IMG/VR virus record: IMGVR_UViG_3300023235_000094
Span: 1 to 30,341 of that record
Strand: one strand, 5' to 3'
DNA length: 30,341 bases
Source: a virus
The first letter of the stretch is position 1. Each line of letters begins with the position of its first letter. The notes beneath the pieces were generated by a model. That model saw only the letters and a list, made by a program, of their open reading frames with translations, was not told the DNA's origin and did no database searches. The position numbers were made by a program, and so were the translations under genes. Positions 13,928-16,950 of this stretch are shown piece by piece.

Positions 13928-13955
13928 ACCCCCCTCTTTGGAGGGGGGTCTTTAT
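13928..13955 (+). terminator. Intrinsic terminator
   Basis: ACCCCCCTC (13928-13936) and GAGGGGGGT (13941-13949) form a 9-bp stem with a TTTG loop, followed by CTTTATTT. Confidence 0.85.
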
Positions 13956-13973
13956 TTGTTTCTGATAATGGGG

Positions 13974-13988
13974 TATACTAGAGGGTAT
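13974..13988 (+). promoter_or_regulatory. Leaderless promoter of HNH gene
   Basis: TATACT (13974-13979) lies 9 nt before ATG 13989. No DnaA-like box is present; the region upstream is the terminator. Like the HNH gene at 8775, this one seems to carry its own promoter. Confidence 0.5.
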
Positions 13989-14534
13989 ATGAAATGGAAA
14001 CAAATACCACAAGTAGGAGGAAACTATGAATGTAATACAAACGGGGAAATCCGTAGGGTTCTAGGAATTGTAAAGTTCGGTAAACAAACAAGAAAAGTAG
14101 GAGGAAACGTTTTAAAGCCTAAGACTAAAAAAAATGGTTATCTTGAAGTTAACTTAACTGTAAGCAACACATCTAAAAGCTTTTACGTTCACAGGTTGAT
14201 AGCTGCGGCTTGGTTAGATATGACTACAAATAACTTGCAGGTAAACCATAAAGATGGTGACAAAAGTAACAACACAATTAGAAATCTTGAGGTTGTGACG
14301 CAGAGTCAAAACATGGTTCATGCGTATAAATTAGGTTTGATAAAACCTAGAAACTTTAAAGGTTCGAATCACCCAAACGCTAGAACTAACGAGGAAGAGG
14401 TTGTTAAAATAAGGCACGAACATACAAACCACCATAGTATAAAAAGATTGTTAATTGACTACCCGCATTTAACAAAACCTATTCTTACTAAGATAGTGTA
14501 CCGCGAAAGCTGGAAGCATGTGATAGTGCTATAA
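13989..14534 (+). CDS. NUMOD4-HNH homing endonuclease
   Basis: From ATG 13989 the protein has 181 residues. It has a NUMOD4-type start (MKWKQIPQVGGNYECNTNGE, then LKPKTKKNGYLEVNL), followed by the HNH core FYVHRLIAAAWL, QVNHKDGDKSNNTIRNLEVVTQSQNMVHAYKLG. The C-terminal part (GSNHPNARTNEEEVVKIRHEH) is the DNA-binding tail often seen with it. This is a clear freestanding homing endonuclease. Upstream in-frame starts are ignored because they precede the -10. Its end overlaps a TGC-TATAAT promoter for the next gene. Confidence 0.9.
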   Translation: MKWKQIPQVGGNYECNTNGEIRRVLGIVKFGKQTRKVGGNVLKPKTKKNGYLEVNLTVSNTSKSFYVHRLIAAAWLDMTTNNLQVNHKDGDKSNNTIRNLEVVTQSQNMVHAYKLGLIKPRNFKGSNHPNARTNEEEVVKIRHEHTNHHSIKRLLIDYPHLTKPILTKIVYRESWKHVIVL

Positions 14535-14561: not shown

Positions 14562-14735
14562 ATGTTCATCGGCAACCGTATCAAAATCACCTCAGAAGAA
14601 ACAACTAACTACGTGATACGGGACATACAGACCCAGGACCAGCTAGACAAGTACCGAGGGTTGGAGGGTTACGGTATAGAGGTGCTGCCAGTTATCCACA
14701 ACAACATGGCAGAGTGTGAGTCTTGCTCCGCTTAG
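14562..14735 (+). CDS. Small hypothetical protein
   Basis: The 57-residue frame begins MFIGNRIKITSEETTNYVIRDIQ, a segment like short uncharacterised phage proteins, and ends with a CESC pair near the C terminus. No Shine-Dalgarno is seen. The coding sequence near its end contains TTATCCACA (14692-14700), a perfect E. coli-type DnaA box, which may instead serve the promoter at 14741. Function unknown. Confidence 0.55.
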   Translation: MFIGNRIKITSEETTNYVIRDIQTQDQLDKYRGLEGYGIEVLPVIHNNMAECESCSA

Positions 14736-14746
14736 TAGTGTATAGT
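14692..14746 (+). promoter_or_regulatory. Promoter of structured RNA 1 with DnaA box
   Basis: TTATCCACA (14692-14700), 40 nt, then TG-TATAGT (-10 at 14741-14746). The distance is about one helical turn more than in the 30-nt promoters. No open reading frame with a usable start follows before the terminator at 14924. Confidence 0.5.
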
Positions 14747-14752
14747 GTTAGT

Positions 14753-14955
14753 AACCCAGTAGTGGTGTGTTTAACAGGCGTATGATGTATTAAGTCACCG
14801 TATGGTGTGCTAACCTTTATCTCGACAAGGGAGCGCCTGTCAAGCACAGCACACGAGCTAGGAGTTCTTAAAACACAATAGAATCTACATCCGACGACAG
14901 TGTGGAAGCTGTCACTACCATAGGGTCACACATAACGTGTGGCCTTTTGGTTTTA
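14753..14955 (+). ncRNA. Candidate structured noncoding RNA 1 (about 200 nt)
   Basis: A promoter and an intrinsic terminator bracket a stretch without a gene. Paired segments: GTGTG 14765-14769 with CACAC 14850-14854; ACAGGCG 14774-14780 with CGCCTGT 14834-14840; inside that, hairpins CACC/GGTG (14796-14807) and CCTT/AAGG (14814-14830), forming a three-way junction. Further on, GACAG/CTGTC (14896-14913) and the terminator stem. I do not recognise a known family. Ends are estimated from the -10 and the T tract. Confidence 0.55.
14924..14955 (+). terminator. Intrinsic terminator of RNA 1
   Basis: GGTCACAC (14924-14931) pairs with GTGTGGCC (14937-14944) with one G-U pair and a 5-nt loop, followed by TTTTGGTTTT. 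The T tract overlaps the next DnaA-like box. Confidence 0.75.
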
Positions 14956-14997
14956 TCCCCAACTGATGAATTTATTATGAAGGTTGTCTGTTATAAT
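14953..14997 (+). promoter_or_regulatory. Promoter of the zinc-finger operon
   Basis: TTATCCCCA (14953-14961), 30 nt, then TGT-TATAAT (-10 at 14992-14997). The transcript would have a leader of about 30 nt with AAAGGAG before ATG 15035, so unlike other early units it is not leaderless. Confidence 0.6.
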
Positions 14998-16261: not shown

Positions 16262-16268
16262 ACTACAG

Positions 16269-16292
16269 CCGCCCTTTCATTAGGGCGGTTTT
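16269..16292 (+). terminator. Intrinsic terminator of the zinc-finger operon
   Basis: CCGCCCT (16269-16275) pairs with AGGGCGG (16282-16288) around a 6-nt loop, followed by TTTTCTT. Confidence 0.85.
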
Positions 16293-16296
16293 CTTA

Positions 16297-16305
16297 TGGT
16301 ACAAT
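16297..16305 (+). promoter_or_regulatory. Extended -10 of structured RNA 2
   Basis: TGG-TACAAT, hexamer at 16300-16305, lies right after the preceding terminator. No DnaA-like box is seen at 25-40 nt upstream. Confidence 0.5.
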
Positions 16306-16311
16306 ATCCGC

Positions 16312-16484
16312 ACAAGCCAGTAGACTATTGTAGTAGGTAAGCTGGCTCGGTAGTGTGTTGAGTCTGTACTACAGCACTACTTAAATACCCGTGGTTGCAA
16401 CGAAGACCACCGCCCTCTGCAATAGAAATAGCGCAAGCGTCATACAGAACCCCTCGATAACGGCTACAACCGCGAGGGGTTTGA
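16312..16484 (+). ncRNA. Candidate structured noncoding RNA 2 (about 170 nt)
   Basis: No open reading frame fits, yet a promoter and terminator bracket this stretch. Stems: AGCCAG (16315-16320) with CTGGCT (16342-16347) enclosing ACTA/TAGT (16324-16334); GTAGTG (16350-16355) with CACTAC (16375-16380); GTGGT (16391-16395) with ACCAC (16406-16410); then the terminator stem. It mirrors RNA 1 on the other side of the zinc-finger operon but shares no obvious sequence with it. No known family recognised. Confidence 0.5.
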
Positions 16485-16490
16485 TATTTA
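16448..16490 (+). terminator. Intrinsic terminator of RNA 2
   Basis: AACCCCTCG (16448-16456) pairs exactly with CGAGGGGTT (16473-16481), loop 16 nt, followed by a weak T-rich run TTTGATATTT. Confidence 0.7.
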
Positions 16491-16501: not shown

Positions 16502-16554
16502 TTATCCCCAGCAGTTGCAAAATACGCAACAACTACGTGCTATAGTGGGGCAAC
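16502..16554 (+). promoter_or_regulatory. Early leaderless promoter with DnaA-like box
   Basis: TTATCCCCA (16502-16510), 30 nt, then TGC-TATAGT (-10 at 16541-16546) and 8 nt to ATG 16555. A GTTGC/GCAAC inverted repeat lies between box and -10. Confidence 0.65.
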
Positions 16555-16825: not shown

Positions 16826-16865
16826 TGGGGATAACGGCAATAGACAGAGCTAAATTTGGTATAAT
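16826..16865 (+). promoter_or_regulatory. Promoter of the lysis-like unit with DnaA-like box
   Basis: TGGGGATAA (16826-16834), 25 nt, then TGG-TATAAT (-10 at 16860-16865). The leader of about 80 nt contains a CTAGG/CCTAG hairpin (16873-16889), and ATTAACTAA (16864-16872) has its exact reverse complement at 16919-16927. Confidence 0.6.
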
Positions 16866-16950
16866 TAACTAACTAGGAAAAGCACCTAGCAACCCGTTTA
16901 GTTTCGACTTCCACGGTATTAGTTAATCAACGCTTATAAAACAAAACAAT

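Follow-up and report, generated by a model that had tools for sequence, protein, structure and literature searches.

A predicted stand-alone RNA gene of about 170 nt, with candidate loop-loop contacts, in a group of related phages

The window analysed here, i.e. the whole stretch of DNA under study, is one virus record of 30,341 bases and probably represents an incomplete contig. Proteins encoded around the site of interest match phage helicase, primase, RecE-like exonuclease, tail-fibre and tail-chaperone families. The feature in question, RNA 2, is located between a zinc-finger/periplasmic-peptide operon and a block of small ORFs and lysis-type genes, the 109-aa protein of which bears a weak resemblance to transglycosylases. 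The predicted transcript begins near 16312 and ends within the U-rich tail 3' of its terminator stem, while the core recognised by a covariance model in the window spans 16315-16480 (188 bits). The original prediction had placed four stems plus a terminator at 16312-16484; both the coordinates and the count of stems are right, the terminator being found at 16449-16480 and followed by the U-rich tail (Table 1).

Table 1. Predicted features of the RNA 2 locus (window coordinates unless a relative is named)
Feature	Position	Strand	Basis
Intrinsic terminator of upstream zinc-finger/periplasmic-peptide operon	16267-16290	+	terminator scan
Extended -10 promoter TATGGTACAATA, without recognisable -35	16295-16306	+	sequence, spacing in members
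RNA 2 transcript, predicted ~170-178 nt	16312-16489	+	covariance model and member comparison
P1 hairpin, AGCCAGU (16315-16321) with GCUGGCU (16341-16347)	16315-16347	+	both-side changes
P1 upper helix	16324-16327/16334-16337	+	part of P1 hairpin
P1 hexaloop UUGUAG, proposed loop-loop partner of terminator loop	16328-16333	+	conservation
P2 hairpin, GUAGUG-UG-UUG/CAGCACUAC, 11-nt loop AGUCUGUACUA	16350-16380	+	near-invariance in all five members
UCUGUA in P2 loop, proposed pseudoknot partner of 16443-16448	16363-16368	+	invariant
P3 hairpin, GUGGU/ACCAC	16391-16410	+	pair change in L032
P4 helix, sequence-variable, GNRA-capped	16411-16439	+	several both-side changes
Linker UACAGA, proposed pseudoknot partner of P2 loop	16443-16448	+	alignment of members
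Terminator stem ACCCCUCG/CGAGGGGU, AUAA bulge, inner CGG/CCG helix	16449-16480	+	compensatory change
Terminator hexaloop CUACAA, proposed loop-loop partner of 16328-16333	16464-16469	+	invariant
TTATCCCCA boxes	14953-14961, 16502-16510; L004 9879; L005 5907; L012 4230; L032 696 and 2284

Searches with the neighbouring proteins, followed by DNA-pattern searches, located RNA 2 in four further contigs of uncultured phages in IMG/VR (L004/L019, L005, L012/L027 and L032), which were accepted as members on their sequence identity (85-96% pairwise) before any model was made. The covariance model trained on the five members scores these homologues at 186-198 bits, and the scores are for that reason not independent. 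RNA 2 of the window is 85% identical to that of L032, the most distant member, whereas the flanking proteins of the same two phages share 36%, 27%, 41% and 48% identity; the RNA thus appears to be under much stronger constraint than the genes beside it. Horizontal transfer could partly explain the low divergence in L032, but constraint is favoured, since the variable sites lie mostly outside the core and include compensatory pairs. The distribution is narrow, as more distant phages that keep the neighbouring 238-aa gene (L007, L081 and L083) have no RNA 2. A DNA search of annotated phages and plasmids returned only a 27-nt piece at chance level. Furthermore, the pseudoknot pattern occurred in 33 stretches of viral contigs and a similar pattern in 11 stretches of the genomes of 84,980 species, none of which, beyond the known members, scored with the RNA 2 model. 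With Rfam 15 at the gathering threshold, no family was reached by the window or the members, GOLLD/ROOL and pRNA included, and lowering the Rfam thresholds produced no hit within the RNA 2 body. RNA 2 is a new RNA family of a known kind. Around the RNA, the upstream terminator is kept in L005 and changed in L012 and L004, and a homing-endonuclease-like gene of the window (HNH_3 and NUMOD4; 13938-14534) is missing from the same place in L004. In L032, a degenerate tRNA-like gene (395-465; CAU anticodon by eye) lies a short way before RNA 2 and has a terminator on either side; it scores 22.1 bits with the Rfam tRNA model, under the 29-bit cut-off, and ARAGORN reported no tRNA there.

The fold, comprising P1, P2, P3, P4 and the terminator, was chosen by inspecting the five members with RNAalifold as a guide, and base pairs were counted on a plain MAFFT alignment made without reference to that fold. 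Under the proposed fold, 96.5% of the cells in the five-member alignment pair. Covariation in relatives, named in the original prediction as a check, was borne out by eight base pairs with changes on both sides (mean of 2.9 in shuffled alignments; 0 of 500 shuffles as high), although five members offer few independent changes for such a count, and the fold being scored had itself been drawn from them. As a control, shifting the pairing partners 1-3 columns along left 0-2 such pairs. Both-side changes in P1 include U-G/C-G/G-C at columns 7-28 and C-G/U-A at columns 11-22; P3 has a U-A to C-G replacement in L032, and the terminator stem carries a compensatory U-A to A-U change. P2 is nearly invariant in the five members, with U-G becoming C-G in L032. 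P4 is the most variable helix, with several both-side changes and two mismatched central pairs in the window and L019, and is capped by a GNRA tetraloop in every member (GAAA at 16425-16428 in the window; GUAA, GCAA and GUAA in others). Apart from this, G-U pairs are present at several positions of the + strand sequence, in keeping with transcription in this orientation, and no reading frame is common to all five members. The fold z-score, another of the suggested checks, is -2.6 for RNA 2 with the terminator (3 of 200 shuffles fold as well) but only -0.33 without it; across the five members the terminator-less values range from -0.2 to -3.0 and are ordinary in several. Thermodynamic stability alone is weak evidence for RNA 2, since in most members it stands out only when the terminator is included.

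By sequence, RNA 2 has its own promoter as well as its own terminator. The arrangement described in the original prediction, an upstream terminator followed by TGG-TACAAT, is real: the stem at 16267-16290 precedes TATGG-TACAAT at 16295-16305. Lacking a -35 hexamer, this promoter was missed by the promoter scan, and extended -10 matches in the window are as frequent as chance predicts (3 found, 2.8 expected). The candidate is raised above chance by a constant spacing, the end of the -10 hexamer lying exactly 9 nt from P1 in all five members, together with the covarying fold. As had been predicted, the RNA 2 promoter has no box of its own: TTATCC(A/C)CA does not occur just upstream of it in the members, and the nearest box (16502-16510) is downstream and belongs to the next promoter. 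The original prediction called the box DnaA-like and took its absence as a hint of different timing; either would be conjecture. The motif occurs six times in the window against 0.4 expected. Its form TTATCCCCA is located 39-40 nt (start to start) before the extended -10 elements of small-gene cassettes and looks like an activator box for a class of phage promoters. The gene after RNA 2 has such a promoter of its own in the window, L004, L005 and L032, with TTATCCCCA starting 39 nt before the extended -10. Genes downstream of RNA 2 are mostly non-homologous, the 89-aa protein of the window matching only L004. In L004, an RNA ligase gene (PF09414; 8987-9616) has entered the gap separating the upstream terminator from the RNA 2 promoter and has left that promoter intact. 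The differing downstream genes with their own promoters and the intact promoter in L004 point to RNA 2 as its own transcription unit. Further downstream, the leader of a 123-aa gene (16860-16950 in the window) has differing hairpin-like sequences in the relatives after a TATAAT-like element, and ends there in AACAACATGAA or AACAATATGAA.

The arrangement had also been said to mirror that of RNA 1, which holds for the layout (promoter, structured region, terminator) and not for descent: the RNA 2 model scores no other copy in the window, so RNA 1 is no homologue of it. In the RNA 1 region (14692-14946), TATAGT follows TTATCCACA at 49 nt, a distance 10 nt longer than at the other boxes; L005 and L012 share this arrangement. 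The outer stem is conserved and encloses an inner part that differs in length among L005, L012 and the window and appears as a separate copy in L004; a terminator follows. RNA 1 is probably a second structured RNA, not related to RNA 2.

Two tertiary pairings are newly proposed here as candidates for RNA 2. The P1 hexaloop UUGUAG and the terminator hexaloop CUACAA are exact reverse complements; the latter is invariant in the members, and the former is invariant at five of its six positions, the sixth being G instead of U in L032, a change that leaves 5 bp and is predicted to weaken the kiss. UCUGUA of the P2 loop and UACAGA of the linker are invariant and can form six Watson-Crick pairs in all five members. 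Variable columns number 1 of 24 in these pseudoknot segments, versus 15 of 50 in unpaired and 22 of 89 in stem positions. At least two complementary 6-nt segment pairs arose among unpaired stretches in 0.13% of trials (0.0013), a value that is indicative only, as the shuffle test was devised after the matches had been seen and used mononucleotide shuffles. The pairings are thus supported by conservation and complementarity, and not by covariation, of which neither has any in the five members. RNA 2 is also rich in GUAG/CUAC repeats, making alternative pairings possible, and the P1 hexaloop is only 30-93% unpaired in the nested ensemble. On balance, both pairings are judged somewhat more probably real than spurious.

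Taken together, the stems kept in relatives with compensatory changes, the promoter, the terminator and the absence of a shared ORF make it very likely that RNA 2 is a structured RNA gene, in line with the original prediction. The best explanation as a whole, given a probability of roughly 0.55, is a stand-alone phage gene for a structured noncoding RNA of ~170 nt that has tied ends and acts in trans. Its stand-alone character is suggested by the conserved promoter spacing, the five helices with compensatory changes, the non-homologous downstream genes, the constraint and the lack of a common frame. In the proposed mechanism, the P1 loop would kiss the terminator loop, the P2 loop would pair with the linker preceding the terminator, and the two contacts would tie the transcript ends into a compact, stable particle. 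As the least supported step, this particle may work by its shape, either scaffolding a protein or machine of the phage or host or acting as its decoy. Such a protein- or machine-binding role is put forward tentatively, at somewhat under even odds, and is favoured over antisense action, given that the loops conserved best have candidate partners inside the molecule and that the scan of phage DNA returned no recurrent antisense target.

The strongest competitor is a trans-acting antisense sRNA that would pair with phage or host mRNAs via exposed loops. Its size, promoter and terminator would be typical of bacterial sRNAs, and unpaired invariant stretches (UUAAA after P2 and the P2 loop) are available. 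Nevertheless, complementary stretches of 10-12 nt in the phages' own DNA are scattered in the member sequences, with none beside a Shine-Dalgarno and start; no two members have such a stretch at the start of the same orthologous gene (phage DNA, perfect pairing), and the most conserved loops are already engaged internally, so this reading is considered unlikely, at about one chance in four. Less probable still are arrangements in which the perfectly complementary hexaloops of one molecule kiss those of another. By analogy, they might close RNA 2 into homo-oligomers, a miniature RNA assembly built from a unit of ~170 nt, which is improbable; if true, it would be a small counterpart of the GOLLD/ROOL cages or of the pRNA ring. 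Slightly more doubtful is a packaging or assembly RNA forming oligomers through such contacts in the manner of phi29 pRNA, given that no Rfam family matched, pRNA included. A 5' leader, riboswitch or attenuator, in which the loop-loop contact would control readthrough past a regulated terminator, has an attractive switch geometry in the terminator loop complementary to an upstream loop; it is very improbable, as the next gene is non-homologous in most members, has its own promoter in four of them, and leaves no consistent downstream gene to be controlled. Finally, a DNA-level recombination or packaging site with merely RNA-like inverted repeats, which conserved repeats in a region of gene-cassette turnover might suggest, is hardly credible in view of the + strand G-U pairs, the GNRA tetraloops and the strand-specific promoter and terminator.

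The reading of RNA 2 as a stand-alone structured RNA with tied ends can be set against known systems. Bacterial sRNAs with intrinsic terminators resemble it in having their own promoter and terminator and in its length of ~170 nt, but RNA 2 is very strongly conserved over its whole length, its loops have internal partners, and the phage DNA scan found no target. The phi29-type pRNA (RF00044) is comparable in length and oligomerises by intermolecular loop-loop contacts; such contacts are possible in RNA 2 as well, although no covariance-model match links the two. RNA 2 itself is a compact phage RNA, apparently more constrained than the surrounding genes; the proposed link from its first hairpin to the loop of its own terminator is unusual, and its size would suit rapid structural and genetic work. 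It would be a further family among the few structured RNAs of phages without a known function. Among these, the nearest in kind are GOLLD and ROOL, phage-encoded stand-alone RNAs of unknown function with pseudoknots and kissing loops, often found near tRNA genes, which form RNA-only nanocages by cryo-EM (PMC12286853). These are several times longer than RNA 2 and have been seen as cages, whereas RNA 2 is known from its sequence, and with no Rfam model match the two are not the same family. RNA 2 is likewise phage-encoded and stand-alone, with a candidate pseudoknot and kissing loops, and in L032 the degenerate tRNA-like gene just upstream recalls their proximity to tRNA genes.
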